Source: Alistipes sp. CHKCI003 (lineage in GTDB: Bacteria > Bacteroidota > Bacteroidia > Bacteroidales > Rikenellaceae). From it: a DNA stretch of 60,031 nucleotides. Position numbers and translations under genes: made by a program. The DNA lies in NCBI RefSeq assembly GCF_900021155.1, contig NZ_FCNT01000042.1, positions 1 through 60,031 of the forward strand, written 5' to 3'. Positions 34,879-52,652 of the stretch are shown one piece after another (positions within the stretch are counted from its first letter, which is position 1; every line of letters starts with the position of its first letter). A model generated the notes under the pieces. The model saw nothing but the letters and a program-made list of their open reading frames with translations, searched no databases and was not told the origin of the DNA.

Positions 34879-34937
34879 CAAAGGTACGAAATATTTTTAA
34901 TACACGAAAAATTGAAAGATTTTTTTTCGAAAATCTC

Positions 34938-35040: not shown

Positions 35041-35072
35041 GGTCTGTTGGCATTGGCTGACAGACCTTTTTT
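35041..35072 (+). terminator. terminator in the capsid leader
   Basis: GGTCTGT/ACAGACC stem with a 12-base loop and six T, about 70 bases after the site D start point and 47 bases before the scaffold gene. The capsid genes should need antitermination or readthrough. Confidence 0.7.
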
Positions 35073-35118
35073 GATGCGGATATGATGATTTATCCCAAAA
35101 CATATAGAACGAAAAAAC

Positions 35119-35760: not shown

Positions 35761-35775
35761 TCAAAACGTAAAATC

Positions 35776-36339: not shown

Positions 36340-36354
36340 AAGAGGAGGTGAACA

Positions 36355-37461
36355 ATGAACGACGTGTTTTATTCATCCATTTTCGGCGAACTGACCAAAC
36401 AGGTACAGATTCGCATCGATGCCGCCTCGGAACTGCGTAAGCGGCTGTTCGACCAGAATATTTACGAGCGATTCCTCGACTGGGACACCCCTACTGTCGG
36501 GTTGAATTTCGAAGAGTTGATCGGCTCGTACAATTTGAGCGTCGCCGCTGCAACGCTCGACTCCAAAGGTAAGGAGCCTATCATGGGAACTGAGGGGCTG
36601 GAAACGATCAAGCAGAAGGTATTGACCCATCAGATGTCTTACTCGATGCCCATCGAAGAGTATCGGAAGGTGTTGCAGATTCTCGATTCTCGGATGCTGT
36701 CCGATTCGGCCAAGACGCAGCAGCTCATCAACCTGATGTGGAACAACGTTACGAAGGTCGTGAACTCCGTACAGTCGAAACTGGACATCATCTTCCTCGG
36801 AGCATTGTCGAACAAGGGTGTATTCACGTTCGACACGACTAACAACCCCGAGGGCGGCGTTCGAGGTACGATCGACTACAAAATGCCGTCCGAGAACATT
36901 GCCACCGCAAAAACGTTATGGACGGATGGGAATGTCGAAACGGTCGATACATTGGAAGACATTCAAGCTATCCTCGACGCAGCGCAGGACAAAGTTACGT
37001 TCGACCGTATTCTGCTCTCGCAGAAACGCCTGTCGTACATCCTCCGCAACAAGAAGATGAAGCTGGCGGTATTCGGCAACGACAAGTCGTCCACTCCGCT
37101 GTTGCTGGCGAACCTGAACGAGTTCATGCGTTATAACGGATTCCCGACCTTCGAGGTTATCCGTCGCATGACCCGCATCCAGAACAATGGCAAGCTCGTG
37201 GAATATTCGCCGTGGAACGACAAAAACCTCGTTTTCGTGCCGTCGGGCAAGCTGGGCGTCATCAAAAATGCCTACGCCGACAACGAACTGCGGCAGGAGC
37301 CGGGCGTAACCTACTCCAACTACGGGCGCATCCGCATCTCGCAGTGGGGCAAGGGCGAAACCGACAACTCCAACGGCGTGGAGTTCACAAAGGCGCAATC
37401 GCTGTCGCTTCCGGTTATCACCGAGATCAACGGAATCTATTCGCTGACCGTAGAATCGTAA
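36355..37461 (+). CDS. major capsid protein
   Basis: 368 residues. Length, position and pattern (RIDAASELRKRLFDQNIY, DRILLSQKRLSYILRN, GKLGVIKNAYADNELRQEPGVTY) fit phage major capsid proteins of the E/HK97-fold group. A ribosome site GGAGGTG lies just before the start. Its size is normal and the frame is intact. Confidence 0.85.
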   Translation: MNDVFYSSIFGELTKQVQIRIDAASELRKRLFDQNIYERFLDWDTPTVGLNFEELIGSYNLSVAAATLDSKGKEPIMGTEGLETIKQKVLTHQMSYSMPIEEYRKVLQILDSRMLSDSAKTQQLINLMWNNVTKVVNSVQSKLDIIFLGALSNKGVFTFDTTNNPEGGVRGTIDYKMPSENIATAKTLWTDGNVETVDTLEDIQAILDAAQDKVTFDRILLSQKRLSYILRNKKMKLAVFGNDKSSTPLLLANLNEFMRYNGFPTFEVIRRMTRIQNNGKLVEYSPWNDKNLVFVPSGKLGVIKNAYADNELRQEPGVTYSNYGRIRISQWGKGETDNSNGVEFTKAQSLSLPVITEINGIYSLTVES

Positions 37462-37465
37462 TTCT

Positions 37466-39014: not shown

Positions 39015-39548
39015 ATGCAACTTGTAGGTCTCAATTCCTGTCATGCAGGCGATCCGTTGCCCAAAGGCGTAAAAGACACTGGCGCCGAAGCATTGCTCAA
39101 AGCTCTGAAAAAGATTACCCAACCCTACAACGGTGGCGTAACTCTCAACTTTTCCAACCCGACGAGCAACAAATTCTATCGAGAAGGAGAGGCCGATCCG
39201 TTTTTCTCCATGCGCGACCCGACGTCGGGCACCAAGGAGATCACTTGGACCGTTGCCGACTTCGATGATGCCACGCTGGAATTCTATTTCGGCACTACCG
39301 AGCCGGCGAAGGGCGAACTGTATGAAGGGACAAAAGCCTTTGTATTCGACTCTAAGAGTGGAGGGTCTTTGGCTTTTGCCCGTCTGAAGTACACAGCGTC
39401 ACTTACAGGAGCAATGAACACCAGCGACCCGCTCCAGATCGCCGTCTCTGCCGATGTATTGGCCCCCGATCAGGGCGGCGTCGCTTGGTGGCCGATTGCT
39501 ACCCCTGAATATACTGAAGCTTCGGCCCTCAAAAGCAAAGGGCTCTGA
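39015..39548 (+). CDS. major tail tube protein
   Basis: 177 residues, beta-rich, just before the chaperone gene: ITWTVADFDDATLEFYFG, GSLAFARLKYTASL. Order and size fit a siphophage tail tube protein. Confidence 0.75.
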   Translation: MQLVGLNSCHAGDPLPKGVKDTGAEALLKALKKITQPYNGGVTLNFSNPTSNKFYREGEADPFFSMRDPTSGTKEITWTVADFDDATLEFYFGTTEPAKGELYEGTKAFVFDSKSGGSLAFARLKYTASLTGAMNTSDPLQIAVSADVLAPDQGGVAWWPIATPEYTEASALKSKGL

Positions 39549-39626: not shown

Positions 39627-40040
39627 ATGGACGAACAAACTCTCGTTGATAAACGTGCGCTCGATGCATTGACAGAAAACTACGAATCCTTCACGCTTGA
39701 AGATAAGGATGGCCATGAGGCTGAACTCCATCTTTATCCACTTCAACTGGGGCGACTGGCTATGATAAGCCGCCGTCTTATCAACCTTGACATGGCGCTT
39801 TCTGGAAATGCCGAAAACGATGTGATGAAAATGTGGCGAATTTGTGCCGACAAGCCGCACGAAGTCGCCGAAATCATAGCTATTGCAACCTTACGCACAA
39901 AATCGGATGTTGAAAATGAGCTCAAAGCCCGGACAGAACTTATCGAATGGTCCCCGACGATGACTACGCCAGCTCTTTCGAATATTCTATCTTCTATCGT
40001 TTTCAAATCGTATTACGGGGATTTTACGATCGCTATTCGC
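39627..40040 (+). pseudogene. tail assembly chaperone, 5' part, split by the satellite
   Basis: 138 codons up to GDFTIAIR at the attL core. Read into the element it would end YIIIFHIPT, an unnatural tail. Joined to 51904-51993 it continues SVKTLQVVITPPTEAERIATTEGAASGDK and stops, giving 167 residues. A second frame (-1) from about 39947 also crosses the site (FYDRYS joined to LGKNASGR), as in the overlapping G/GT chaperones of siphophages. The gene is needed for tail assembly, so the phage should be tail-defective until the element leaves. Confidence 0.85.
40034..40040. other. attL core TATTCGC
   Basis: Left copy of the 7-base identity. Left of it the tail chaperone frame is intact, right of it sequence becomes AT-rich and non-coding to 40206. 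Confidence 0.75.
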
Positions 40041-40206
40041 GCATATATAATAATTTTTCATATACCAACATAATATACTATTTATCAACAATATATATGC
40101 ACTTATTAGCTCTAAACACATTCTATTGCACATATAATTTGCATACAAAGTTCGAATATATGACTTTTTTAGGGTAATATTCCGCTTGTATTTGGGCATG
40201 AAAAAA

Positions 40207-40228
40207 GGCGGTGTTTCCCGCCTCCTTT
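40207..40228 (-). terminator. terminator of the satellite's leftward operon
   Basis: GGCGG-GAAACA-CCGCC followed by six T on the minus strand (the T run is at 40201-40206). It insulates the phage's tail genes from leftward satellite transcription. Confidence 0.8.
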
Positions 40229-40407
40229 CATTCATATTCCCCTCCCCACCGACGACGCTCATACCGTTTGCAATATGCGGCACTTTTCAGCGTCATTCGG
40301 CGGAGATGTTCACATAATTCCGCCGCTGTCATATTGAACGTCTGTACGCCCTCGGATGCAATATCATCACGCCGGCCGCCTCTCCGTTTGATTGGTCGTT
40401 CGTCCAT
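40228..40407 (-). CDS. small basic satellite protein, 59 residues
   Basis: MDERPIKRRGGRRDDIASEG then an HTH-like helix pair (MTAAELCEHLRRMTLKSAAYCKRY). Last gene of the leftward operon. A 9-bp inverted repeat TCTTTGATT/AATCAAAGA lies upstream near 40425-40450. Function unknown. Confidence 0.5.
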   Translation of the reverse strand: MDERPIKRRGGRRDDIASEGVQTFNMTAAELCEHLRRMTLKSAAYCKRYERRRWGGEYE

Positions 40408-40488
40408 ATCCCCGAATTTTTCGTATCTTTGATTGGTCGAGAATCAAAGAATCGGGGAGGGGTGGCCGTTGGGGCACCCTTTCTATTT

Positions 40489-40740
40489 TCAACCGTTTTT
40501 TGCCGTTTTATCGGGTTGCGTCCCGGCCCATTTAAGCGCGCATTCTCGTAACTGTTCATCTGTGATCTTAGGAAATAAATCCGGCTTGTCTGTTATTGCT
40601 TTATGTTGCGGGCGTCCGTCGTAATCGGGCAATTTTTCCGCCCATTCCATTGCTGCGCGTTTCGCTTCTTCGTCAGTGCCGGCATCGTATTTTTCCACGT
40701 GTTCCATAATCGTATTATTCGATATATTCAAGTGCCTCAA
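40489..40740 (-). CDS. hypothetical satellite protein, 83 residues
   Basis: Two similar halves of helical sequence (KRAAMEWAEKLPDYDG... and LRECALKWAGTQPDKT), suggesting an internal duplication. Overlaps the gene upstream by 26 bases. No family recognised. Confidence 0.5.
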   Translation of the reverse strand: MRHLNISNNTIMEHVEKYDAGTDEEAKRAAMEWAEKLPDYDGRPQHKAITDKPDLFPKITDEQLRECALKWAGTQPDKTAKNG

Positions 40741-41329
40741 GATTGACGTTGGACACCTTTCCGTCCTCGGTCAGATATAACAAATTTCGATACCCGCCGC
40801 CCTCGGCGCCGATTCCTGTATGAATGTATTTATGTTCGGACGCAAATGCGTTGAGGTTGTCGATAGCCTGTTTCACGGCCTCACAAAGAGCCATCGCCCG
40901 CCCGCGTTTTTCTGTTGCGGCGATAGTGTATTCATTCTCTTTTTCTTTGATCCACGTATCCGATAATACGACGGCGTGTTCATTGATTGCAAACGCATCG
41001 AGTTCAAGCGGATTCGTTGTCCCATATCTAACCGCTCGCTGAACGACTTTTGCAGAATCTTCGATAACTCCCTGTAAATGCGCATACGCTTCCTTAATCG
41101 CCTTGTCGCGCATATACGGGATTCGTATCTTTTTGCTATCCTCTCGTGCGAGCCTGTCGGCGGCACTTTTGGTTTCCGCACATTGATTATCGGCAAGGTC
41201 TTTAATCACATTGTCGGCAATCTCCAATCCGGAGCTCCTGAGTTGTTCGACCGCAGCCGATAGCGTGGGCAACACCTGTTCGTGTATGGATATTAAATCC
41301 TTTAATCCTTGTTTTTTGATTGATTCCAT
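40715..41329 (-). CDS. hypothetical satellite protein, 204 residues
   Basis: Long helical protein (SIHEQVLPTLSAAVEQLRSSG, RDKAIKEAYAHLQGVIEDSAKVV), no recognised domain. Just downstream of the satellite TerS, so a packaging or capsid-interference role is possible by position (satellites often carry such genes beside terS), but nothing in the sequence proves it. Confidence 0.55.
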   Translation of the reverse strand: MESIKKQGLKDLISIHEQVLPTLSAAVEQLRSSGLEIADNVIKDLADNQCAETKSAADRLAREDSKKIRIPYMRDKAIKEAYAHLQGVIEDSAKVVQRAVRYGTTNPLELDAFAINEHAVVLSDTWIKEKENEYTIAATEKRGRAMALCEAVKQAIDNLNAFASEHKYIHTGIGAEGGGYRNLLYLTEDGKVSNVNLEALEYIE

Positions 41330-41340
41330 GTTTTCGTGTA

Positions 41341-41799
41341 TTAATATTCGCTTTCAAGTTTCATTAAGTATTCCCGGGCTTCTTCCGGCGTTAGTGTACG
41401 CGGCGGTAGAATATCCGCCCCGTTCGCGCCTGTTATTTCCTGTCGCTCCACATATCCGCGCTTCTTGCCCCGTGTCTTTAGCGTAAAGATGATCGCTGTT
41501 TCGGATGGCTTTTCGATCCAACCCGCGAACTGCTTTTCGCCGTGATCATCTATTTCAAATTTCGGGACGCCTTGAATCAGCGTCCGCAAACGGTTTTCTG
41601 CCATATCGAGTATTTTCTCCCGTGCTTCATCGAATACTGCGCTAAACTCGGGGTCATTTTTAAGCCACCCGTATAGTGTAGATCGCCGGATGTTCAATGC
41701 GGCGGCGATGTCGCCTGCGATACCCGCCTTTGCTTCGCATACCTCGCGGAAAATATCGATTGTCGGCTTTTTGCCTCGGTTCTTTTTTATAGTGTCCAT
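41341..41799 (-). CDS. terS: satellite terminase small subunit
   Basis: 152 residues from the ATG at 41799. HTH at ~10-60 (IDIFREVCEAKAGIAGDIAAALNIRRSTLYGWL), then a C-terminal half nearly identical to the phage TerS (FAGWIEKPSETAIIFTLK, TRGKKRGYVERQEITGA, LPPRTLTPEEA). In known satellites the TerS keeps its TerL-binding part and changes DNA specificity, sending satellite DNA into helper capsids. There is no terL nearby. Strongest single evidence for a satellite. Confidence 0.85.
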   Translation of the reverse strand: MDTIKKNRGKKPTIDIFREVCEAKAGIAGDIAAALNIRRSTLYGWLKNDPEFSAVFDEAREKILDMAENRLRTLIQGVPKFEIDDHGEKQFAGWIEKPSETAIIFTLKTRGKKRGYVERQEITGANGADILPPRTLTPEEAREYLMKLESEY

Positions 41800-41818
41800 T
41801 TTGTAAGGTTTGTGCTTT

Positions 41819-42136
41819 TTATGTGTGTTCAACTTGTATAGTTTGCCTTTTTTCATGTGTCGAAGCTGCAAGCCTCCAAAGTTTACGGGCCAATACTTTA
41901 GCCTGTTTCGGGCTGAAATGCAACATAGCACAATCACCCTGTATGAAATCCGTGTCGTATTCGGAACAGTCCGGAACGTACAAAATAATTTCATCGTCGC
42001 CCTTGTGCTCGCCGCAACAATCAGTGATCGTGGTTCGCGCCCGGTCGAGTTTTAATCCAATGCCGTTAAGGTTTTCAACCTCTTTAGGTTTGCCCGCCGG
42101 TTGCTCTTTTCCATTTTTTTTCAGGTCGTGTGTCAT
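41819..42136 (-). CDS. hypothetical satellite protein, 105 residues
   Basis: Basic N-terminal tail (KKNGKEQPAGKPKEV) and a C-terminal helix (FSPKQAKVLARKLWRLAAS). No family recognised. Confidence 0.5.
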   Translation of the reverse strand: MTHDLKKNGKEQPAGKPKEVENLNGIGLKLDRARTTITDCCGEHKGDDEIILYVPDCSEYDTDFIQGDCAMLHFSPKQAKVLARKLWRLAASTHEKRQTIQVEHT

Positions 42137-42196
42137 AGATTTTGATTATTAAAACAGTTGTTTTTCTGTTGAATATCGGTTGTTTTCACAAAGCGT

Positions 42197-42529
42197 TTAT
42201 GATGCACGGTATCTGCCCGCATCGAATGCGTTCGATATGTAGAATGCGATTTTATCTGCGGTTCGCTTATCATCACCCCGAATACAGAGGGCCGTGCCAA
42301 AACCGAATTGTGAACTCGTCGGGTAATATGCGTATAGATTCCCGTCCCTGTCTCTGGCTTTGGGTGCTTTGAACACCTCGTAATAGGTCAGCCCTTCGGA
42401 GGTGGTCCGCCTGTAACAGTACATACCGTTGGCCTCGTTGTGGGCGATTTTCACAAACTTGTCGCCGTACTTCGTAAACTCGTCCCGCAATGGCGGGCAA
42501 AATTTGCTTTGTCTGCTATCCGTTTTCAT
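42197..42529 (-). CDS. hypothetical satellite protein, 110 residues
   Basis: Contains KFVKIAHNEANGMYCYRRTTSEGLTYYEVFKA... (split), a beta-rich pattern common in small Bacteroides phage proteins. Function unknown. 60 bases upstream of the terS-side genes. Confidence 0.55.
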   Translation of the reverse strand: MKTDSRQSKFCPPLRDEFTKYGDKFVKIAHNEANGMYCYRRTTSEGLTYYEVFKAPKARDRDGNLYAYYPTSSQFGFGTALCIRGDDKRTADKIAFYISNAFDAGRYRAS

Positions 42530-42606
42530 ATTTTTTCGATTATCTTTCCTGTTGTGGGCACTTGTTCCACCCGGGTGTTTTCATGCGCTGAAATCAAAAA
42601 GGTTTG

Positions 42607-44013
42607 TTAAAACGGCTCATCGTCGGCCACGGCCGCCCCGCCTTCGTAGTCGGTTATGCGGGTCAAGCTCTCATTATGCCGGAAGCAAATATCACCTGTC
42701 GCGCCCTCGCGGTTCTTAGCGATATGTAGCACCCCGACCCCCGCGGAGGAAATAGACCCGTATTTTCCCGCCTCGATGGTTTCGGCACCATACACCGCCG
42801 GGCGATCTATGAAAATTACCATATCGGCATCCTGTTCGATCGCTCCCGATTCCCGGAGGTGGGACAATTTCGGCGTTTTGTCGTCCCGTTGTTCCTCGAC
42901 CTTGCGGGAGAGTTGCGACAGCAGGATAACCGGCACATCGAGTTCCTTTGCGAGCAGCTTTGCCGCCCGGCTGGCGGCGGCGATCTCACGCTCGCGGTTG
43001 GTGTTCGGGTTGCGCATTGCGGTATCGACGAGCTGGAGGTAGTCGATAACGACCATCCCGCACCGTCCCCGGCGGTGCATCGCCTTGCATTGCGAGCGGA
43101 TCGAGTTCATCGAAATGTTCGCCCGGTCGTTGAGGTAAACCGGCATCGCCGAAAGGTTCGCGCCGGCCTGTTCGAGACGCGACCACCCCGGCCCGTCAAC
43201 ATTGCCCGTGCGGAATGCCGTCGGGGCTATGCCGGAATCGCCGACCAACATACGCCCGGCCAACTGCTCTGCGGGCATTTCCAACGAAAATATACACACC
43301 GGAATCCCGGCAGCAGCAGCGGCCCGGGCGAAGTGAAGCATTACGGCCGATTTACCCATACCCGGACGCCCGGCCAGCACGATAAGCTGGCCACCCCTCC
43401 ATCCGCCCGTAAGGGCATCGAGGCGCTGCAAGCCCGTAGGAATCCCGATGCATTCTCCGGCCTGCACAGCCCGTTGTCGCCGTTCGAGGTTGTCGATAGT
43501 TTTCCGCACGACCTCTGAAAGCGGCGCAATTTCGTCGGCGTGTGCTGCTGTGGCCGCAATAGTCGTTATCTCCGTTGTCGCCCAATCGAGGATACCGTCG
43601 GGATCGGAAGAGGCTCGGACGGCAAGCTCATAACCGAAAACAGCCAACCGGCGGCGAATAGCCGTATCGTTAAGTTGCCGGGCGTGGTCCAAAACGTTCA
43701 CCCCGGAACCCACGGCCGACGTAAGAGAGGCAAGATAGGCGGCCGGGTTGTCGATCTCGGGGAATTGTTTGCAGCGCTGCGCAAGCGTGTAGAGGTCGAT
43801 TTTCTCGTCTTTGTCATACATCGCCCGCATCACCTCGTAGATTCTGCCGTTTTTCGGGGCGTAGAACGCCGAAATTTCGACGATCTCCGCCACGTCGGAC
43901 AAGTACTCCGGTTCGAGAATCAAAGCGCCCAAAACGGCTCTTTCGAGTTCGGGCGATTCCGGGAGCGTCAAATCGCCGGAGCGGTTACAGGAAATTGTAT
44001 TTTCGCGTTTCAT
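42607..44013 (-). CDS. DnaB-like replicative helicase (satellite)
   Basis: 468 residues. N-terminal DnaB domain (LPESPELERAVLGALILEP), Walker A GRPGMGKSA (~225), Walker B VVIDYLQLVD (~325), LSQLSRKVEEQRDDKTP near 375. Full length. Opens the satellite origin for autonomous replication, with the DUF6291 protein upstream as likely partner; overlaps that gene by 29 bases. Confidence 0.9.
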   Translation of the reverse strand: MKRENTISCNRSGDLTLPESPELERAVLGALILEPEYLSDVAEIVEISAFYAPKNGRIYEVMRAMYDKDEKIDLYTLAQRCKQFPEIDNPAAYLASLTSAVGSGVNVLDHARQLNDTAIRRRLAVFGYELAVRASSDPDGILDWATTEITTIAATAAHADEIAPLSEVVRKTIDNLERRQRAVQAGECIGIPTGLQRLDALTGGWRGGQLIVLAGRPGMGKSAVMLHFARAAAAAGIPVCIFSLEMPAEQLAGRMLVGDSGIAPTAFRTGNVDGPGWSRLEQAGANLSAMPVYLNDRANISMNSIRSQCKAMHRRGRCGMVVIDYLQLVDTAMRNPNTNREREIAAASRAAKLLAKELDVPVILLSQLSRKVEEQRDDKTPKLSHLRESGAIEQDADMVIFIDRPAVYGAETIEAGKYGSISSAGVGVLHIAKNREGATGDICFRHNESLTRITDYEGGAAVADDEPF

Positions 44014-44722
44014 GGTTTGGAGTGTTTGCGGGTTTGTTAAATTCGGATTTACGGCGTATCCAATTCCGCGCGGCGGCTTGCCAGTTCTTCATCGGGGATT
44101 TACCGGACACTTGCCAGCCGTTCGCCTCGAAATGGTCGTAGAAACTTTCCGCATCCGTATCCGTTCCGTGAATCTTCGAAAAATAATCTTTGACTATTTC
44201 GAGCGCGGGGACGACAAACGCCGCGCGTTTGGTAGTCCCTCGGCGCGGCTTGTCCGCGCTTTCTTTACTCTCGTTAGAGAGTTTCTTTATATTCTCATCA
44301 TCATTATCATTATCATTATCATTATCGGCATCCACCGCATTCGATCGTATGCGACCGCATCCGCTTGTATGCGACCGCATCCGCTCGGTTCGCCAACGTT
44401 TGTTTGCATTTTCGGAATTTTTATTGCATACATCCGCATATTTGGCCCTGTCGCGGTCTATTTGAGTGCGCATAAGGCCAAACATCGAATATAACACCTC
44501 CCTATCGGTCGGTTCTTCTCCGTAGAGCACATAGCGTTTTACTGCATCGTCGATTTTAAGTCGCAAATCCGCTGGAAACGTTAATAACTGCTCCGCCCAA
44601 TCTGTGTAATACAAAAAATTCGGCTTTTCTTTCTGTTGCATATCTTCCACTGTACGTCGGTTGATAGCCGGCGTCCCTGCACACTCGCTGCGAGTTGCAG
44701 GAACTTTTTCCACCTCCGTCAT
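43985..44722 (-). CDS. DUF6291-like replication protein
   Basis: About 245 residues from the ATG at 44722 (an ATG at 44641 before KEKPNFLYYTDW is the other choice). N-terminal DUF6291 pattern (YYTDWAEQLLTFPADLRLKIDDAVKRYVLYG), an Asn/Asp repeat (DADNDNDNDND, from a hexanucleotide repeat near 44294-44325), then a C-terminal domain (FVVPALEIVKDYF, DHFEANGWQVSGKSPMKNW) typical of phage replication proteins. Likely initiator or helicase loader. Confidence 0.7.
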   Translation of the reverse strand: MTEVEKVPATRSECAGTPAINRRTVEDMQQKEKPNFLYYTDWAEQLLTFPADLRLKIDDAVKRYVLYGEEPTDREVLYSMFGLMRTQIDRDRAKYADVCNKNSENANKRWRTERMRSHTSGCGRIRSNAVDADNDNDNDNDDENIKKLSNESKESADKPRRGTTKRAAFVVPALEIVKDYFSKIHGTDTDAESFYDHFEANGWQVSGKSPMKNWQAAARNWIRRKSEFNKPANTPNHETRKYNFL

Positions 44723-44726
44723 ATCC

Positions 44727-45092
44727 TCAATCTTGATTTTTGGCACTTTTCGCAAGGTCTGACGCACTTTCGGCTTGTATCCTTACAGAAGAGGTCGTTT
44801 GCCGTTCCAGCCACGTCAAAAGCTCCTTTTTCGAGAAAACAAGACGCGGCCCTATTTTCCGGTATGGGATTTCGCCCTGAGACTTTTTGGTGTATATGGT
44901 TTGAACCGAGATTTTACAGCCGTTATCGTTCAAGAACGCGGCCGCCTCCTCAATAGTAAGATTGTCATTTTCGATGTTTTCCGGTACCGTGTTTTTCTTG
45001 GTGTAGGCTTCAAAGGCTTTCGACACGGCTGCCTCGATAGTTGTCTGCAACTGATCGGGCGTAGTTACGATTATTTCTGTCATAACGTCCAT
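44727..45092 (-). CDS. excisionase/MerR-type HTH protein
   Basis: 121 residues. HTH_17 pattern at ~45-95: LTIEEAAAFLNDNGCKISVQTIYTKKSQGEIPYRKIG (split) then FSKKELLTWLE. Such proteins act as excisionases or operon regulators. First gene behind promoter site E, so excision or replication would be turned on by the phage signal. Confidence 0.75.
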   Translation of the reverse strand: MDVMTEIIVTTPDQLQTTIEAAVSKAFEAYTKKNTVPENIENDNLTIEEAAAFLNDNGCKISVQTIYTKKSQGEIPYRKIGPRLVFSKKELLTWLERQTTSSVRIQAESASDLAKSAKNQD

Positions 45093-45126
45093 TTTTATCG
45101 CAAAAACTATTTTTGCAAATACACTG

Positions 45127-45157
45127 CAAACGTCGCAACGTTCGGCAGATTATGCAA
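45127..45157 (-). promoter_or_regulatory. shared promoter/operator, site E (satellite)
   Basis: TTGCATAATCTGCCGA, 11 bases, TTTG on the minus strand; one base off the phage form. A hairpin GCAAAAA-TAG-TTTTTGC lies in the leader. Drives the satellite Xis-like, replication, and TerS genes. Confidence 0.8.
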
Positions 45158-45239
45158 GTGTTGTGTCGTTTTTTATATGTTATTTTTCAACAATTTATCG
45201 ACATTTTGAGTGAGGTTGTATTTACACCCGTAAGCGGGT

Positions 45240-45566
45240 TTATTCTTCGCTCTCTATCAAACTTAACATCATCCAACTAACCCCTATAACCCAAGTTGAT
45301 ATAACTACACATTGGTAAGCTATTATAGAGATTGGCGCATCCGAGTTCATAATATAAAAACTGACGAATGCAAGACCGATAAAGCCAAAAAACATAAGAA
45401 TCGCTAATGCCGTCAATCCTGCCATTTTTAGACAGTTCTTTATCGACTTTTTGATTACCCGCCTAACAGCCTCTTCGGCCGCTTCATCTACTCGGGCATC
45501 GGTATAATCTTTCAGCCCTTGAATCAAAAAGCGGGTGCGGTTTAGTATGTCGTTCTCTCGGTTCAT
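45240..45566 (-). CDS. membrane protein, two transmembrane helices
   Basis: 108 residues: amphipathic N-terminus (RVDEAAEEAVRRVIKKSIKN), then helices AGLTALAILMFFGFIGLAFVSFYI (split) and IAYQCVVISTWVIGVSWMML. Overlaps the KRSDL gene by ATGA. Possibly an exclusion protein; no evidence beyond topology. Confidence 0.6.
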   Translation of the reverse strand: MNRENDILNRTRFLIQGLKDYTDARVDEAAEEAVRRVIKKSIKNCLKMAGLTALAILMFFGFIGLAFVSFYIMNSDAPISIIAYQCVVISTWVIGVSWMMLSLIESEE

Positions 45567-45805
45567 GATTGAGGCGGGATTGTGAGTTGATTATCTTTTT
45601 TAGTCGGTCTCGACCGCAATACCTCCAATATCACCCGGTCGCCGTCGAGAATCAGTATTCCGTGCCGGCGGGGATCGCCGCCTTTGGTTCGGTGTTCTGC
45701 CTCGCATTCGGTGCGGATGCGGACACAACGGAAGCCCGCCGCCTCGAAAGCCGCTCCGATCAGCGATAAATCGCTGCGTTTCGATACATATACTTGCTTG
45801 TTCAT
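45563..45805 (-). CDS. KRSDL-family protein (satellite copy)
   Basis: 80 residues. Shares KRSDLSLIG-AFEAAGFRCVRI and the rest with the phage gene at 23115 almost residue by residue, far more than either shares with 27597. Recent exchange between phage and satellite. Confidence 0.65.
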   Translation of the reverse strand: MNKQVYVSKRSDLSLIGAAFEAAGFRCVRIRTECEAEHRTKGGDPRRHGILILDGDRVILEVLRSRPTKKDNQLTIPPQS

Positions 45806-45808
45806 AGA

Positions 45809-46156
45809 TCAACCTTTGGATTGCGGGTTCGTAACACTTACCAACTGAAACATTGCCTCGGTAGTATCGGAGAAGATGTTGTTGATATTGGCCAGCAAGC
45901 ATCGGGGAGAGGTCAACTGAAGTGTCTTTCGGCACTCCATGATATTACCATATGGATCCCAAACGCCTCGTATCTTTACACCTCTTACGACCATTGTACC
46001 GCTCACGCCCAACACGGTAGTCTTGGTTACATCGCGCAGCACTTTGTCGATCTTGACGGGCAAACCGCACATCGTGCGATATGAGTTGTCGTCAAACATC
46101 GTGTCGAAATCGAACTCTTGTGTATTCACTTCGGGGAAAATCATCATCTTATCCAT
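45809..46156 (-). CDS. hypothetical satellite protein, 115 residues
   Basis: Alpha/beta mix (LPVKIDKVLRDVTKTTVLGVSGTMVVRGVK...). No family recognised. Part of the leftward small-gene row. Confidence 0.5.
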   Translation of the reverse strand: MDKMMIFPEVNTQEFDFDTMFDDNSYRTMCGLPVKIDKVLRDVTKTTVLGVSGTMVVRGVKIRGVWDPYGNIMECRKTLQLTSPRCLLANINNIFSDTTEAMFQLVSVTNPQSKG

Positions 46157-46157
46157 A

Positions 46158-46478
46158 TTATTTTCTGAATTTATAGGTTTGTTTCTTGAATATTGAATTG
46201 TAAATGCCGATAAAAGCGTCCTTTAAGTTTGCATAAAAAATAGCTGCATTAACAAAAGCGCAGAATCCCATAAAGAAAGCAGCAAAGCAAAGTGTCAAGA
46301 CTTTACCAAAAGGAAGTTCATCCATCAATGAAGGATGAGCGAACCTCAAGCTTACCACGTCATTTAGCGAGAGAGCTGCGAGCGCGCAACATCCGACTGC
46401 GAATATCAGGCTTACAACACAACTCCAACCGGACAACTCGAAGCAATCGCCGTCCCAGTTCCGAAACCGTGTTTTCAT
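46158..46478 (-). CDS. membrane protein, two to three helices
   Basis: 106 residues. Hydrophobic segments VVSLIFAVGCCALAAL and VLTLCFAAFFMGFCAFVNAAIFY. No family recognised. ATGA-type overlap with the small gene upstream. Confidence 0.55.
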   Translation of the reverse strand: MKTRFRNWDGDCFELSGWSCVVSLIFAVGCCALAALSLNDVVSLRFAHPSLMDELPFGKVLTLCFAAFFMGFCAFVNAAIFYANLKDAFIGIYNSIFKKQTYKFRK

Positions 46479-46648
46479 AATGATTCGGTTTTGAAAGTGG
46501 ATAATACTTCATTTATCATGTCCCGCAAGCGGATGAGGTCCCGCTCGTCCATATCGACGAAATCATCGCCTCCCAGCGATATGGACCACTTTTCGGTGTC
46601 GCCGTGCAGACGGTAGTCGTTCGTTTTCATCAGTTTTATATCTGTCAT
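46475..46648 (-). CDS. small acidic protein, 57 residues
   Basis: MTDIKLMKTNDYRLHGDTEKW...FVDMDERDLIRLRDMINEVL. Overlaps the membrane protein start by ATGA, which supports it as a real gene. Function unknown. Confidence 0.6.
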   Translation of the reverse strand: MTDIKLMKTNDYRLHGDTEKWSISLGGDDFVDMDERDLIRLRDMINEVLSTFKTESL

Positions 46649-46659
46649 CGTCTTAGTCG

Positions 46660-46872
46660 TTATTTGGTTGTCGTATTCTGTTCGATTACGCGCCCCATAA
46701 GGGCGTGAAGGGCTTTCAACTCCTCGAAAGTAAGGGGATCGCCTTGAAGCACATCAGCTTCGCCCCACCCGAGGTAATAAATGATTTCGGGCGCTTGCCC
46801 CGCCGCACTGTGAATCTCGTCGCGGTAAATCTGGATATTAGCAAGGTTGTCGACGGGTTTATTCTGCATCAT
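46660..46872 (-). CDS. hypothetical protein, 70 residues
   Basis: From the ATG at 46872 (MMQNKPVDNLANIQIYRDEI...). Contains IIYYLGWGEADVLQGDPLTFEEL. Overlaps the gene upstream by 14 bases. Confidence 0.5.
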   Translation of the reverse strand: MMQNKPVDNLANIQIYRDEIHSAAGQAPEIIYYLGWGEADVLQGDPLTFEELKALHALMGRVIEQNTTTK

Positions 46873-47197
46873 GATCGTTAGCTGTTTGAGGGGTTGCAAT
46901 TCTGTCTAAATCGCACAGCAGAGAATAACTCAGGTAATGATCCTCCAACGTGGAAATTACCACGTCAAGAGGGCCTAACACTTCATTGCGACAGTCAATG
47001 ACACCACGCGGGTCGGATTCCACTGTTTCGACAAAAGCCGCGCGCAACGATTTCGCATTGTCGAGTACAGACAGCCATTTACGGGTGTTGTCGCTAATCG
47101 GGAGAATTTGAATATCGCCCATTGAGGGGCGAGGGGTTCCGTCAGATGCGACGGAGACGACGGGTACGGGCGTACCCTGTTTCTGAGAGTGTAACAT
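46859..47197 (-). CDS. hypothetical protein under leader RNA A2
   Basis: 112 residues, helical C-terminus (RNEVLGPLDVVISTLEDHYLSYSLLCDLDRI). Its start codon is the target of the antisense in leader RNA A2, so it heads a controlled operon. Function unknown. Confidence 0.6.
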   Translation of the reverse strand: MLHSQKQGTPVPVVSVASDGTPRPSMGDIQILPISDNTRKWLSVLDNAKSLRAAFVETVESDPRGVIDCRNEVLGPLDVVISTLEDHYLSYSLLCDLDRIATPQTANDHDAE

Positions 47198-47210
47198 TAG
47201 ATTTAGGATA

Positions 47211-47330
47211 AATAAAAAAGCCGTCGTAAGGTGTCCTACGCTCTAATGCAAGCGCCGGGGCGTTTCCGCTACCCGCACCATAGACGGCAAATTGTGGATA
47301 GAAATAATTCATAGCATTAGATTTAGGATA
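47211..47330 (-). ncRNA. structured leader RNA A2 with start-codon antisense (satellite)
   Basis: Promoter box TATATTTG just upstream. P1 GCCGTC/GACGGC (47283-47288, 47220-47225), GGTG/CACC, core GGGTAGCGGAAACGCCC with GCG-GAAA-CGC, then GCTTGCAT and T6. CATTAGAGCGTAGGA (47234-47248) can pair 7+4 bases with TCCTAAATCTAATG (47195-47208) at the next start codon. The 16-base sequence CATTAGATTTAGGATA (plus strand) occurs at 47195 and 47315. Same family as RNA A1. Confidence 0.65.
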
Positions 47331-47378
47331 TTGCAAATATAGCCCTTATTTTTGAAACCGCAAGGGCTGGGGCGGTTT

Positions 47379-47696
47379 TTAATACACCGTTACGAAATTC
47401 TCCACCTTGAACGAGCGCCAGCCGCCCGCCTCGACGTCGTAATACCTGACCGTCTGGCCGTCATCGGGGCGCCCCGTCCCTTTGATGGTAGATTCAACAT
47501 CGTGCAGCGTGCCCGCCGCCTTGCGCAGTGTGCCGTCCGCTTTCTCGTATGCGAACCGGACCACCCCGGCCCGCATCCGCTTCGTCAATCGGTAAAGTGC
47601 CCACGCCTTCGAAAGGCACACGGCGAAGGCTTTCCCCGTCGAGCGGAACAACGTCCACGCCCGCCGCATAATCGTTTGTAAATCGTTTCTTTTCAT
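47379..47696 (-). CDS. SH3-like protein (satellite copy)
   Basis: 105 residues: MKRNDLQTIMRRAWTLFRSTGKAFAVC... ending RYYDVEAGGWRSFKVENFVTV. Paralogue of the phage gene at 27269 with the same two-part layout. Function unknown. Confidence 0.65.
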   Translation of the reverse strand: MKRNDLQTIMRRAWTLFRSTGKAFAVCLSKAWALYRLTKRMRAGVVRFAYEKADGTLRKAAGTLHDVESTIKGTGRPDDGQTVRYYDVEAGGWRSFKVENFVTVY

Positions 47697-47714
47697 CGTT
47701 CTGTTATTGTTTGA

Positions 47715-47792
47715 TTAACGAATATTGCCGCCTCCTTTGAGTGCATCACCGAGCCAGCAAAAAGCCATGATAAGCGATAAAATCAGTGTCAT
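47715..47792 (-). CDS. membrane micro-protein, 25 residues
   Basis: MTLILSLIMAFCWLGDALKGGG..., one short hydrophobic helix and Gly-rich end. Between two genes of the operon. Could be real or chance. Confidence 0.35.
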   Translation of the reverse strand: MTLILSLIMAFCWLGDALKGGGNIR

Positions 47793-47805
47793 ATTGGGAT
47801 TCGTA

Positions 47806-48084
47806 TTAGTTCAACATCTTATTAAGTAACCGGACCGCCTCTTTGTCCTCGTCTCCGTTCTCATCATATACTGCCTTTACCGTGGTTCTCTCGTATTCTA
47901 TCCACGAATAGGGAGCTGTCCAATAATCGCCCTTGTCCTCGGCTATTTCGGCCTCGTAGGCAATCACAGCCAAATAGTCGCCGCATACGACCTCGAAGGT
48001 CTCGGCCTCGCCGTTCAGTTTCGTAATGTGGTCGGCGGCCTGCTTGGCGATCTGCTGTAATTTGGTGTGCGTTGCGGTGGTCAT
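47806..48084 (-). CDS. hypothetical protein, 92 residues
   Basis: Acidic alpha/beta protein (FEVVCGDYLAVIAYEAEIAEDKGDYW). No family recognised. Confidence 0.55.
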   Translation of the reverse strand: MTTATHTKLQQIAKQAADHITKLNGEAETFEVVCGDYLAVIAYEAEIAEDKGDYWTAPYSWIEYERTTVKAVYDENGDEDKEAVRLLNKMLN

Positions 48085-48095
48085 GGTTGTCGGCT

Positions 48096-48350
48096 TTATG
48101 ATAAATGAAAACCCCGTTTTTCGTAAGCGGCCTGCGTATGGTCCTGCAACTTGTCGAAAGAATACGCCCGCACCATAAACATTCTATTGCCCGCAAATCG
48201 CACCTTAACTGTATAGCGGCATACTTCATCGCTCGAAAACTTGATTTTGCGGGTTTCGGGATAACGGGCCATAAAGTAGGCCGTAAACTGTTCTTTCTGC
48301 TCCGCGGTCAATTTCTTGAAGCTGCGTTTGGTGGTGTTTTGTGTATTCAT
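48096..48350 (-). CDS. hypothetical protein, 84 residues, first gene of the leftward row
   Basis: Basic N-terminal tail (TTKRSFKKLTAEQKEQFTAYFM) and beta part (RYTVKVRFAGNRMFMVRAYSF). Own promoter at 48393, divergent from the repressor; in the position of a cro-like or early gene. Confidence 0.55.
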   Translation of the reverse strand: MNTQNTTKRSFKKLTAEQKEQFTAYFMARYPETRKIKFSSDEVCRYTVKVRFAGNRMFMVRAYSFDKLQDHTQAAYEKRGFHLS

Positions 48351-48392
48351 AATTGTAATATATTTGTATTGCTTTTATCTCTTTTGCTATTG

Positions 48393-48527
48393 CAAATGTA
48401 ATATGAATATTTTACATATGCAAACATTTTATCAAAAAAGTGTAAAAAAAATATATTGCAAAAATTAGGGACACCACCCACTATGTAGCACGATTATTTG
48501 CATACCTTTATTTTTTGCTTATCTTTG
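48393..48527. promoter_or_regulatory. divergent promoters of the satellite switch
   Basis: Leftward TTTG, 20 bases, TACATTTG (minus strand, -7 at 48393-48400). Rightward TTTG (48497-48500), 19 bases, TATCTTTG (48520-48527). Same geometry as the phage switch at 26.5-26.6 kb. Confidence 0.7.
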
Positions 48528-48552
48528 CCGTGTAATATAATCGTATAACATT

Positions 48553-48825
48553 ATGAAAATAGACATCAAAAAGATGTGCAAATCGCACGGGGTTAGTTTG
48601 GTATCGTTAGCTGAACGGTTAGGCGTATCGCGTCAGACTATACACTACTACTGCGAACAGGGCGACCGAAACCCCGTATCGCAACTGCAACGCATTGCGG
48701 ATGCAATAGGATGCAGTGTATCGGATTTTTTCGAGGAAGAGGCGCAGCCGACCCCCCAACCGACAAACACGATCACGTGCCCGAAGTGCGGGACGGTGCT
48801 GGAGGTAAAGGAAAAGGACAAATAG
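48553..48825 (+). CDS. XRE-family repressor with zinc-ribbon tail (satellite)
   Basis: 90 residues. HTH ~5-60 ([31 protein letters not shown]), then [18 protein letters not shown]. The tail matches the phage repressor at 26251. Likely keeps the satellite quiet and divergently controls the gene at 48350. May also be the antitoxin-like regulator for the Fic gene that follows. Confidence 0.8.
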
Positions 48826-48833
48826 TTGCGGTC

Positions 48834-49388
48834 ATGGGAAAGAAAACAGACCAAATAGATGCCCGTAGCCTTGAAAAGGCCCGTACCCTGTTCGAGACGG
48901 GAGACATCGACCGTATCGAGGTCGGCACGGTGGCAGGGCTTTGCGAGATTCACCGTTACTTGTTCGGCGGGCTGTACGACTTCGCCGGCAAGGTCCGGAC
49001 GCTGAACATCGCAAAAGGAGGGTTTCGCTTTGCCAATGCCTTATACCTCGACGCTATTCTGCCCGTCATCGAGAGGATGCCGGCGGGAACTTTTGAGGAA
49101 ATAATCGCAAAATACGTCGAAATGAACGTCGCCCATCCGTTCATGGAGGGCAACGGCCGGGCCACCCGCATTTGGCTCGATATGATGCTGAAAAAGCGAA
49201 TCGGTAAGGTCGTGGACTGGCGCAAGGTAGACAAAGACCTGTATTTGCAGGCTATGGAGCGCAGCCCGATCAACGATTTGGAGCTGCGCACGCTGCTCGG
49301 CGGAGCCTTGACCGATCGCACGGAGGATCGAGAGGTGATTTTCAAGGGTATCGAGCAATCGTATTATTACGAGGGATACGAGGCATAA
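48834..49388 (+). CDS. Fic/Doc-family protein
   Basis: 184 residues from the ATG at 48834. Complete active motif [12 protein letters not shown] (~100-111), so catalytically competent for AMP transfer to a protein. Preceding [16 protein letters not shown] is typical. No inhibitory S/TxxxE/G helix is obvious at either end. Could modify host or helper proteins (interference or defence). Eight bases after the repressor gene. Confidence 0.85.
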
Positions 49389-49406
49389 TATAACAACCCT
49401 AACGAT

Positions 49407-49982
49407 ATGGAACTACAACCCATCCAAAGCAAGATTTACGAGATACGGGGCCAGCGGGTGATGCTGGACCGTGAACTGGCGGAGCTCTACCAAGTAACCA
49501 CCAGCGCACTAAACCAAGCGGTAAAACGCAATGCGAAACGGTTCCCGCCCGACTTTATGTTTCAACTTACACATCAGGAGTTTGCAAACTTGAAATCACA
49601 AATTGTGATATCAAGTTGGGGCGGTATCCGTAAAATGCCTTATGCGTTTACCGAGCAAGGAGTAGCAATGCTTTCCGGCTTGCTCAATAGCGACGTGGCT
49701 ATAAATGCCAATATCGCTATTATGCGTGCTTTCGTGGCGATGCGCAACTACATCATGACCACGACGACCGTAACGGCGGAATTATCCGAAATCCGGGCCC
49801 GGCTGGCATTATTGGAGCAGACGGGCAAGGACAACGCCGAAGCGGTCAGCGACCTGTCGGAGGATATGCGCCAAGAGCTCGACAATATCTATCAAGCTAT
49901 TGCGGCATTGTCGATCAAGATGCCGCAAGCCCGAAAGACCGCCCAACCGATAGGGTTCAAGCGAGCGGACACGGAGAAATGA
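49407..49982 (+). CDS. ORF6N-domain regulator
   Basis: 191 residues. ORF6N domain at ~5-105 (YEIRGQRVMLDRELAELYQVTTSALNQAVKRN, RFPPDFMFQLT, PYAFTEQGVAMLSGLL), then coiled helices. Phage-type DNA-binding regulator, often an antirepressor. ATGA overlap with the truncated Bro gene. Confidence 0.85.
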   Translation: MELQPIQSKIYEIRGQRVMLDRELAELYQVTTSALNQAVKRNAKRFPPDFMFQLTHQEFANLKSQIVISSWGGIRKMPYAFTEQGVAMLSGLLNSDVAINANIAIMRAFVAMRNYIMTTTTVTAELSEIRARLALLEQTGKDNAEAVSDLSEDMRQELDNIYQAIAALSIKMPQARKTAQPIGFKRADTEK

Positions 49983-50212
49983 TACACACAAGGACGGCAC
50001 GACGGACGGGGGACCGCTTCGGCGAAGTGAGAGTAACCGAAGTAAAGGGCAAGGCAATGTTCGCGGCAAGCGACGTTGCGCGTGCTTTGGGATATGCACG
50101 CCCCGCCGATGCTGTTACCGCCCATTGTAAGGGGGTCGCCATTTTACCGACCCCCTCCACAAACCAGTTTGGCGCGGTAGTCATGCAAGACATGAAGTAT
50201 ATTGCTAACTGA
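49979..50212 (+). CDS. truncated Bro-N protein (satellite)
   Basis: 77 residues: DRFGEVRVTEVKGKAMFAASDVARALGY matches the N-terminus of the phage antirepressor at 14344. It stops after MQDMKYIAN, where full-length relatives continue. Either a decayed gene or a short decoy that could bind partners of the helper's antirepressor. 50213-50390 holds no gene. Confidence 0.6.
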   Translation: MIHTRTARRTGDRFGEVRVTEVKGKAMFAASDVARALGYARPADAVTAHCKGVAILPTPSTNQFGAVVMQDMKYIAN

Positions 50213-50389
50213 TAACACAACGAATTGAGGATGACCTCATTTGAAATGACCCCAGAGGACACCCTAAAACGGGGTATCCCTGACAATCAGGGATTTATGC
50301 AACAAACCTCTTTAATCACGGGAGCGGTATAATTATTTGTTATATCGGCCGACTTACAATAGTGATGACGAGGATACGGCGAAATACAG

Positions 50390-50456
50390 TAAAAAAACGG
50401 AATGACCGGCGGAAATAAGATGTGCTCCACTGATCATTCCTAAACAAAAATGAACG
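50390..50456 (-). ncRNA. small RNA behind promoter site F
   Basis: From the predicted start near 50456 the minus strand folds GGAATGA (50434-50440) with TCATTCC (50399-50405), with inner GTGGA/TCCGC, then seven T. Length ~65 bases, no ORF. It lies just beyond the integrase gene and is the only product that promoter F can make. Confidence 0.55.
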
Positions 50457-50462
50457 TTACCG

Positions 50463-50493
50463 CAAAGGAATTGTACCGCGGCACATTACGCAA
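50463..50493 (-). promoter_or_regulatory. shared promoter/operator, site F (satellite)
   Basis: TTGCGTAATGTGCCGC, 11 bases, TTTG on the minus strand. Points away from any protein gene, toward the small RNA. Confidence 0.75.
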
Positions 50494-50502
50494 ATTGTCG
50501 GG

Positions 50503-51726
50503 TCAAAAATTCGTCAGTAGTACGGCATTTTTCTCCCGTTCCTCCCGCTCAAAGCTGGCCAAATAGTTTTCGGTCGTTTTAAGATTCGAATGTCCGAGAC
50601 TTTCGGATATGTAGGCAATATTTGCCCCCGAACGTTTTAATACCGTGGCGAACGAGTGTCGCGCCGAGTATGTAGAGAAAGCTCCAAATCCCAACTCTCG
50701 GCCCAATTTACGGGTGTATATGTTCATCAACATTGTAAACGCATTGCATCGTTTTCTCAACTCGAATGCGTTTTTTTCCTTTCCCGTGAGAATCGGGAAA
50801 ATATAATTATCTGCCTTTGGGGGATTGCCCCAGCGGTCGATAACGGCCTGCATCGGAGGGGTGATAATGACCCGTATTTCTTTGTGCACTCTATTTGTCC
50901 GTTCCGTCTTCTTTCGGGTAAAACATATTTCCCCGTCGACTATATCACAATATTTCAACCTCGATAAATCGGCCATATTTATCCCATTGCATAGATACAT
51001 GAAAAGCCAATAATCCCGATATTTTTCTATCGTCTTACTGCCCTTGTAGCGAGCTATTGCGCCTATCTGTTCAAGCGTAAAGGCAAGTTTTCGCCCTTCG
51101 CCTCTGCTGATCTCGTATTTACCGTGTCCGAACGGATCTGCGCTCGGCTTGATTATCCCATTCCGGCTCGCATCGAGTATAACAGTCCGAAGCTGTCGCA
51201 AATGAATTGAAATCGTCGTAGGCTTTAATCCTCGGGCTTTCTCATGTGCTTCGTAGCGTTTAAGCCATGATGGTGTAATTTCCGAAAATGTTATGTTCTT
51301 ACCCCCGAAACGCTCGAAAGAAATAAGAGCATCCTTGCACACGTACCACGAACCAGCACGCTCCTCATCCCTAAACATCTGCAAACGCGCCTCAAAAGCT
51401 GTGTTTATCGTTCCCGTCGTCGCTCCGGCTAATCGCATATTTAAGGCATCAAACGAGAAATCCCCCATAGCAGTAAGATCCCGCACGAAATCCCGCACGA
51501 TATTGAAGCGGGTCTCTATTTCCTCCCGAATTTGAACCAGCGATCGCAATTTCGTAGTGGGCAACTTGCGCCACTCCTCAACGGATAGTGTCTTGCTGGT
51601 GGTATAATACTTTTGTTTGCGGGCGAATCCAACCTGTACCTTTACGGGATATTTCCCGTCTGCTTTGGGGCGTCTGGTGTCTAATACAGTGAACACCGAA
51701 ACACAATCTTTGGAATACTTGAACAT
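50503..51726 (-). CDS. int: tyrosine integrase of the satellite
   Basis: 407 residues. N-terminal arm-binding domain (CVSVFTVLDTRRPKADGKYPVKV), SAM-like core domain, catalytic domain with R (NGINMADLSRLKY), HxxR-type SARHSFATVLKR, and Tyr in TTENYLASF. Promoter box TAACTTTG near 51765. Lies 170 bases from attR, as integrases of such elements do. Site: overlap of two tail genes of the phage. Confidence 0.92.
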   Translation of the reverse strand: MFKYSKDCVSVFTVLDTRRPKADGKYPVKVQVGFARKQKYYTTSKTLSVEEWRKLPTTKLRSLVQIREEIETRFNIVRDFVRDLTAMGDFSFDALNMRLAGATTGTINTAFEARLQMFRDEERAGSWYVCKDALISFERFGGKNITFSEITPSWLKRYEAHEKARGLKPTTISIHLRQLRTVILDASRNGIIKPSADPFGHGKYEISRGEGRKLAFTLEQIGAIARYKGSKTIEKYRDYWLFMYLCNGINMADLSRLKYCDIVDGEICFTRKKTERTNRVHKEIRVIITPPMQAVIDRWGNPPKADNYIFPILTGKEKNAFELRKRCNAFTMLMNIYTRKLGRELGFGAFSTYSARHSFATVLKRSGANIAYISESLGHSNLKTTENYLASFEREEREKNAVLLTNF

Positions 51727-51819
51727 AGGTCAAAATTTGCATACATTGTACATACAATTTGCATGCAAAGTTAAAGAAACAATCCGAAAACCAAAAAACA
51801 ACGGTTCGCATTTTTAGGC

Positions 51820-51835
51820 ATTATCCACTGATAAT
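51820..51835. promoter_or_regulatory. palindrome between integrase and attR
   Basis: ATTATC-CACT-GATAAT; candidate arm site for integrase or excisionase. The rest of 51727-51896 is AT-rich without a gene. Confidence 0.4.
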
Positions 51836-51896
51836 CTGTATTTTTATATGAAATATAAAAATGGGGATAATTCATCAAAAATACTATTATGTATAA

Positions 51897-51903
51897 TATT
51901 CGC
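51897..51903. other. attR core TATTCGC
   Basis: Right copy of the 7-base identity. Directly after it both tail chaperone frames resume. Confidence 0.75.
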
Positions 51904-52217
51904 TCGGTAAAAACGCTTCAGGTCGTAATTACCCCACCGACGGAAGCGGAGCGGATAGCCACTACGGAGGGCGCAGCATCTGGGGACAAATAGATGCGCT
52001 TGCAGTCCGTTATCATTGGACGATGGAATACATTCTTTGGGAAATATCATGGGCCAATGCACAACTCATGATTGCCGATGCCCTTAAGATTGATTACAAA
52101 AGCAAATCCGAATCCAGCCAACAAAACGATAAACAAACAAGAATTCCTGATATAATCGATTTAGACGATCCCGATTCGATGAATACGCTCCTTCTGATGG
52201 CAGGAGGCAAACGATAA
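51904..52217 (+). pseudogene. tail assembly chaperones, 3' part
   Basis: Frame 1 (continuing the gene at 39627) runs to the TAG at 51991. Frame 2 (-1) runs to 52217: LGKNASGRNYPTDG... SIWGQIDALAVRYHWTMEYILWEISWANAQLM, then an acidic end (IDLDDPDSMNTLLLMAGGKR), the usual pattern of the second chaperone. The ATG at 52023 would give only a fragment. Intact only after satellite excision. Confidence 0.8.
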
Positions 52218-52235: not shown

Positions 52236-52652
52236 ATGCTTGACGAGATATTAAAATCCGCATCCGCACTTGGTGCTTGCGAACGGCTGCATAAGGTGAA
52301 AAATTTTCATTCTCTGGCCTCGCTGTTTTTTTCGCCGCAAGGACTTGAATTCTGTCAGAAAAACAATTTCCCGTCGCTGAGAATATTTCAGGCACACAAA
52401 AATGAAATAAGCGGCAATGACATGTATACAGATTGCGGTTTCATCAAACTCGACAAGCGAAAATACATTTGTTTAGTCGGAAACACTTCTGCCGAAATAG
52501 AGGCCTCGGGTGTCGAGTTCGTTCATACCGTCGTGCTCATGCACGGAGCCAAAGCCACGATCAATGCTTCGAATTATGCCGTACTGAAGATAGTCAACAT
52601 CAGCGGTTCAGAGGTGAAAATAAACAGAGATAATACCGTCGTCGTCTTATGA
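52236..52652 (+). CDS. hypothetical tail-region protein
   Basis: 138 residues. The second half is a beta-solenoid-like stretch (SAEIEASGVEFVHTVVLMHGAKATINASNYAVLKIVNISGSEVKI, split). Common in Bacteroides phages between the chaperone and tape measure genes. ATGA overlap with the tape measure gene. Function unknown. Confidence 0.6.
   Translation: MLDEILKSASALGACERLHKVKNFHSLASLFFSPQGLEFCQKNNFPSLRIFQAHKNEISGNDMYTDCGFIKLDKRKYICLVGNTSAEIEASGVEFVHTVVLMHGAKATINASNYAVLKIVNISGSEVKINRDNTVVVL

Follow-up and report, generated by a model that had tools for sequence, protein, structure and literature searches.

A small element splits a two-frame gene of an Alistipes prophage

The window analysed here, the whole of a 60,031-nt stretch, is contig NZ_FCNT01000042.1 of the draft genome of Alistipes sp. 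CHKCI003 (assembly GCF_900021155.1, 105 contigs). It holds a prophage and, within it, an element of 11.87 kb (40034..51903) that splits a two-frame gene, predicted to encode a tail assembly chaperone, located between the tail-tube and tape-measure genes. The left piece of this gene (39627..40040, + strand) is read in frame 0, with the −1 frame open over its last 40 codons; the right piece (51904..52217, + strand) carries frame 0 as far as 51991, where it stops, and the −1 frame as far as 52217. An original prediction, made from the letters of the window, had placed TATTCGC at both ends of the element and held that joining 40040 to 51904 restores two overlapping frames. Both points were borne out: the heptamer lies at 40034–40040 and 51897–51903, and the join extends frame 0 by 29 codons, ending at the stop at 51991, and the −1 frame by 103 codons, to 52217. 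The + strand of the window holds 10 copies of TATTCGC, so the 7-bp repeat is not significant alone. The left open reading frame (ORF) enters the element, reads AYIIIFHIPT and then stops; the 7-bp identity block comes without replacement sequence, so that the gene is broken while the element is integrated. Arm-like repeats lie close to both element ends. That an element splits the gene is established with very high confidence.

At the right end of the element is a tyrosine integrase gene (50503..51726, − strand; Arm-DNA-bind_5, SAM_5 and Phage_integrase domains), with the crossover 171–177 bp upstream of its start. Running in the opposite direction are the genes of a cI-like repressor (48553..48825, +), a Fic-domain protein (48711..49388, +; an ORF of uncertain true start, PADLOC candidate family PDC-S04) and an anti-repressor-like ORF6N-domain protein (49407..49982, +); the PADLOC matches of the Fic and ORF6N proteins are to candidate families only. 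Next come an excisionase-like HTH_17 protein (44727..45092, −; a Pfam HTH_17 match, with PHROG excisionase families weak and TIGR01764 under its cut-off), a DUF6291 protein with a likely role in replication (43985..44767, −), a DnaB-type replicative helicase (42607..44013, −; domain and PHROG profile matches) and a TerS (41341..41994, −; PHROG terminase small subunit) whose likely start, by comparison with protein P0122, is near 41799. A 59-aa end gene (40228..40407, −) has a homologue at the far end of a related element in genome G227 (43.75% over 48 aa). Domain and PHROG scans agree with the gene content originally proposed, namely integrase, Xis-like protein, replication genes, regulators and TerS. 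Apart from TerS, which had been named as the sole virion gene, none was recognised in the 20 of 24 element ORFs scanned with PHROGs, and AlpA found no Pfam match in 10 of the 24, the HTH_17 protein among them. The layout is that of a phage-inducible chromosomal island (PICI), with integrase, repressor, replication genes and TerS and no recognised head or tail set, and the gene set would suit a satellite that draws on the TerL of a helper.

The same gene is uninterrupted in related prophages

A single PHROG profile of 208 positions is matched on both sides of the split, by the left piece at positions 28–97 and by the right ORF (52023..52217) at 157–195. The original prediction implied that uninterrupted copies should exist in other genomes, and we found them. 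The natural protein P0001 (167 aa, its cluster representing 28 member sequences) shares 137 of the 138 residues of the left piece; its remaining 29, SVKTLQVVITPPTEAERIATTEGAASGDK, are those that the right piece encodes in frame 0. Relatives of the left piece occur in seven of 268 genomes of the family: CHKCI003 itself, five with unbroken prophage copies (L046–L050) and G227. Both frames are unbroken in all five, and their −1-frame codons lie two bases after residue 138, as in the joined flanks of the window. The nine bases preceding the junction, GCTATTCGC, are identical among the window, L046 and L050, and the relatives resemble one another more closely in the DNA around the site than in parts of the gene further upstream. 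Two further candidate empty sites, L108 and L109, were rejected as the same DNA as L046 and L047.

The window flanks and the five relatives share an arrangement of two overlapping frames between the tube and tape measure genes, as in the G/GT type of lambda. In L046 the −1 frame opens just 7 codons ahead of the site and the frame-0 stop lies 29 codons beyond it; since the frameshift must fall between these points, the element sits inside the frameshift window. We examined 120 of 213 homologues. The interrupted product, P0003, which is listed in 24 contigs, was the only one ending in element sequence; 118 of the 120 could be placed at the site, with AIR there in 108. Beyond the family, a search at the level of the order matched the gene in three of 393 genomes, CHKCI003 included, the other two matches being weak, and tblastn found it in none of the INPHARED phage records.

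The surrounding prophage is the probable helper

On the + strand, the prophage encodes TerS (29928..30374), TerL (30450..31844), a portal protein (31855..33261), a major capsid protein (36355..37461), a tail tube protein (39015..39548) and a tape measure protein (52649..56755; PHROG, Pfam TMP_3). The element TerS is 62% identical to that of the prophage, with 28 identities in the first 60 aligned columns and 60 in the remaining 83. Within its own genome it matches only itself and the prophage TerS, which supports the earlier naming of the prophage as probable helper. The prophage TerL has one distant relative, on contig C49, in two stretches (42% and 28%). An IMG/VR scan for the TerS, of which the best 80 of at least 600 stretches were considered, gave a best match beyond the known contig of 49%; in the order, 17 of the 393 genomes matched; CHKCI003 is one of them, a second matched at E 1e-37, and the others were weak. 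The element is likely a satellite and the prophage its helper.

Several other features of the phage contig were observed. A small gene is common to the prophage (23115–23390) and the element (45563–45805; 152 bp, 88.8%), among further short shared stretches. By eye, an ORF pair in the phage early region (11868–13470) resembles TnpA/TnpB of the IS200/IS605 type. A long ORF at 16775–18289 holds many near-identical repeats of the GAQIGSSGY type, and ARAGORN places tRNA-Gln (ttg) at 16147–16218 and tRNA-Thr (agt) at 27919–27991 of the phage contig.

Two contigs of one metagenome carry the occupied junctions letter for letter, L107 the left and L036 the right. Relative to the window, L107 shows 6 differences over 7877 positions of the element and 85 over 5113 of the prophage; for L036 the figures are 0 over 3897 and 19 over 7973. 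The prophage differences start roughly 2–2.6 kb beyond the element, and in L107 all 85 lie left of about 38000 (window 34921–38000). Since both junctions recur in this way, the occupied state cannot be put down to assembly; an error at the junctions, which the original prediction had named as a way for it to fail, is unlikely. The occupied state occurs in prophages that have diverged further out, through either spread by the integrase or recombination of the flanks. L036 (11,869 bp, integrase 100%) had been considered as an excised circle and L038 as an empty site; mapping showed both to be occupied junctions from one metagenome.

Crossover regions of sister integrases resemble the site

Relatives of the integrase (E ≤ 1e-90) were found in 45 of the 268 family genomes, CHKCI003 included. 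In a tree of 26 integrases, that of the window groups with those of G227, G111 and G123 (support 100/99); proteins P0242–P0250, most with 68–71% identity, are further members of the integrase clade. At the crossover position, G111 and G123 have a stretch that equals the empty site of the window at 19 of 23 and 18 of 21 bases. We scored the region 130–250 bp upstream of int at 23 loci, using 45-mers from the phage contig as decoys (1500 per test). Against the window site G111 and G123 both scored 15, and the other 21 loci scored 6–9. For G111 none of 1500 decoys reached 15, for G123 one of 1500 did, and the summed score of 30 was attained by none of 1500, the best decoy sum being 25. TGCAAAT arm-like motifs flank the matching stretch on either side in both genomes; given the match at the crossover and these motifs, the stretch looks like an unintegrated attachment site (attP). 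The genomes of G111 and G123, which are incomplete (81% and 85%), gave no match to the chaperone gene. A third match, L013, was rejected: its score of 15 is against the empty site of another phage and off the crossover, and falls to 7 with the window site and crossover region only.

Because the crossover regions of two sister integrases match it, the site looks cognate and not accidental, as if a clade of these integrases had the chaperone gene as its target. The same match supports the proposal, made originally from the window, that a satellite has its attachment site in a tail gene of the helper.

Related elements carry tail genes

Four related elements with defined repeats are small too, at about 9–14 kb. 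Between its repeats the G227 element measures 13.7 kb; it encodes a chaperone homologue lacking the −1 extension, DnaB and a tape measure protein of 1485 aa. The G152 element (L092 and L093, G152:C1), of about 14 kb with 45-bp repeats, has genes for a tape measure protein of 1021 aa and for a gp3-like TerS, which belongs to another family. Satellite kin may act on one node of tail assembly in two ways, by blocking the helper gene or by bringing their own.

The G227 element (L009 and L051, G227:C17:16207-29906), which lies at the start of a host gene, appears to have captured helper tail genes. In the G111 element, at L010:5978-9586, PAPS-reductase-like, ParB-like and TerS genes have, by eye, the same order as the genes ahead of the prophage TerL in the window; no TerL is present, and this block is a possible capture of packaging-side genes. 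In L048:1-8281, tail tube and chaperone genes are joined to early genes, HTH_17 and an end with an integrase, with no head genes between; this would be either a deletion derivative or another element with tail genes.

Excision may switch on helper tail assembly

We propose that the 11.9-kb element, likely a satellite, splits both chaperone frames of its likely helper, and that excision by the integrase at the 7-bp core would restore both and allow the helper to make tails. We give this reading a probability of about 0.72. On induction, excision of the satellite would rely on its integrase and HTH_17 protein, and replication on DnaB together with the DUF6291 protein. The satellite TerS, which diverges from the helper protein in its N-terminal part and resembles it closely elsewhere, would deliver satellite DNA to the helper TerL. 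Before excision, the short chaperone of the helper would be missing its final 29 residues, and the frameshifted form would be missing entirely. Because the split helper would lack these, its tails, which the satellite needs too, would wait for excision, and helper tails may form only once the satellite has left. With such a target, a free satellite would also integrate in cells where its helper is present. A broader proposal is more tentative, at somewhat less than even odds: that helper-embedded satellites had a second origin, in Bacteroidota, from a separate integrase lineage with the dual-frame chaperone gene as cognate site; that this lineage and its kin target the tail-assembly node in its entirety, one member blocking the helper chaperone at the frameshift region until excision and others supplying a chaperone and tape measure themselves; and that excision is the switch for helper tails.

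A number of observations weigh against the proposed excision switch. The chaperone assignment is a prediction from gene position and the two frames; Foldseek returned no match at E ≤ 0.001 for the model of the predicted protein, and no standard slippery heptamer (X XXY YYZ) is present in the window or in four relatives, the only one among the window and the five relatives being TTTTTTG in L048, 19 bp ahead of the site. At the DNA level, neither the empty site nor the circle was found in IMG/VR with exact patterns, or in the CHKCI003 genome with up to 2 mismatches allowed. Among the six prophage copies that the 268 family genomes hold of the gene, a single one is interrupted, which leaves recurrence unsupported. 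The match in G111 and G123 has the opposite orientation relative to int from that in the window, the site being roughly palindromic, and a scan with six empty sites gave 15 for L013 as well and 16 for one shuffle. G227 belongs to the clade of the window integrase and lies at another site, with a score of 6 for its region. The four mapped relatives all use other sites, with repeats of 16–45 bp: G227 is at the start of a host gene (16-bp repeat), G152 in a tRNA-Pro, G218 in a tRNA-Met and G262 in a tRNA-Arg gene, and ARAGORN finds the far-end repeats of the latter three inside intact tRNA genes.

One alternative is that a satellite with its usual site in the chromosome inserted by accident in a prophage tail gene, after which the prophage would be dead and the satellite stranded. 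In favour of this, the relatives use other sites, and the ORFs upstream of the integrase at 21 loci, inspected by eye, include no chaperone copy, several resembling host genes, other integrases or tRNA-like fragments. ARAGORN found no intact tRNA at the integrase-proximal crossover in 32 loci. The longer repeats of the relatives, against 7 bp here, and the single occupied copy among six also speak for it, as do off-target events described for helper-embedded PICIs (HE-PICIs; PMC10111431). However, the crossover regions of the sister elements match the site far better than decoys do, the occupied form is listed in 24 contigs (P0003) and occurs with diverged prophage flanks, and the occupied prophage carries a related TerS. 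We therefore regard a secondary-site accident as unlikely, if the most serious of the alternatives. Much less probable is that the element is the remnant of a second, nested prophage, or some other integrative element and no satellite. As in prophages, DnaB, TerS and an anti-repressor-like gene are present, and L048 joins early genes to tail genes by an apparent deletion, but both junctions recur in the metagenome, the four related elements with defined repeats are equally small, and TerS is the only virion gene recognised.

The element might instead be a domesticated switch, immobile alone, that keeps tails off in the lysogen for the benefit of prophage or host. Regulated gene integrity is known for skin-like elements, which counts for this idea. 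It is also discussed for HE-PICIs (PMC10111431). Since a pure switch would have no use for a TerS, a repressor and replication genes of its own, all of which the element retains, and since empty copies exist, we consider domestication slightly more improbable still than a nested prophage. The window is a contig of a draft genome in 105 contigs, as a chimera of assembly would require; the metagenome contigs, with both junctions and with sequence differences further out, and the 24 contigs with the interrupted product refute that explanation in practice.

Comparison with known satellites

The preferred reading, a satellite whose excision restores a helper tail gene, has counterparts in several known systems. 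Skin and comK-type elements leave a restored gene on precise excision; there a host cell gene is split, whereas here it is a phage late gene. PICIs of the Staphylococcus aureus pathogenicity island (SaPI) type encode their own TerS, divergent in its N-terminal part and otherwise helper-like, and occupy chromosomal sites apart from the helper. The window element resembles them in its similarly divided TerS, its integrase, repressor and replication genes and its size, and differs from them in lying inside the helper. Vibrio phage-inducible chromosomal island-like elements (PLE) are satellites with chaperone and tape measure genes that produce chimeric tails, according to the available text of PMC12987554. 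Action on helper tail assembly is common to PLE and the proposed satellite, whose kin in G227 and G152 carry tape-measure genes, that in G227 also a chaperone gene. Unlike PLE, for which the same text has virulent helpers, the window element has no recognised tail gene and sits in the chaperone gene of its helper.

The closest counterparts are the HE-PICIs, reported in prophage late genes of Enterobacterales in 2023 (PMC10111431, also cited in PMC11389934). The original prediction knew of no described satellite with such a target, and in this it missed a published group. The available text of PMC10111431 describes a founding HE-PICI and 491 more, at 14 sites in nine lambda-type late genes, naming sites in A, B, C, E and V; the satellite excises after the composite replicates, 28 off-target cases and late-gene capture are reported, and there too it is inferred that the late gene functions only after excision. 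As in HE-PICIs, a small element, likely a satellite, lies within a late gene of its probable helper prophage, with an identity block of at least 7 bp and no replacement sequence; the gene would stay broken until excision, related elements are found elsewhere, and kin appear to have captured late genes. Compared with HE-PICIs as that text presents them, the window element differs in several respects. It belongs to Bacteroidota, has DnaB and its own TerS (HE-PICI 11capE is without terS) and targets a two-frame chaperone gene. Its integrase, HTH_17 and DnaB genes are on the − strand, opposite in orientation to the late genes on the + strand. An HTH_17 protein is present where no AlpA match was obtained (Pfam, 10 of 24 ORFs), and the doubled TGTATTGC motif is absent from the outer 500 bp at both element ends.

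The concept of a satellite embedded in its helper is thus already published, and what differs here is the Bacteroidota host, the opposite orientation, the lack of an AlpA match and the dual-frame target. By title and beginning of abstract, the open-licence papers among the matches listed describe neither a helper-embedded satellite in Bacteroidota nor a satellite in a tail chaperone gene. If our reading is true, it adds a second phylum, with the orientation reversed, to the helper-embedded satellites described in Enterobacterales, and argues that selection favours a position in a late gene, as opposed to late transcription reading through into the satellite. Helper-embedded satellites as a restored-gene switch aside, it would also tie helper-embedded satellites to tail assembly, as lately shown for PLE, and would make the Alistipes kin a host group in which excision-gated tail production is directly testable.

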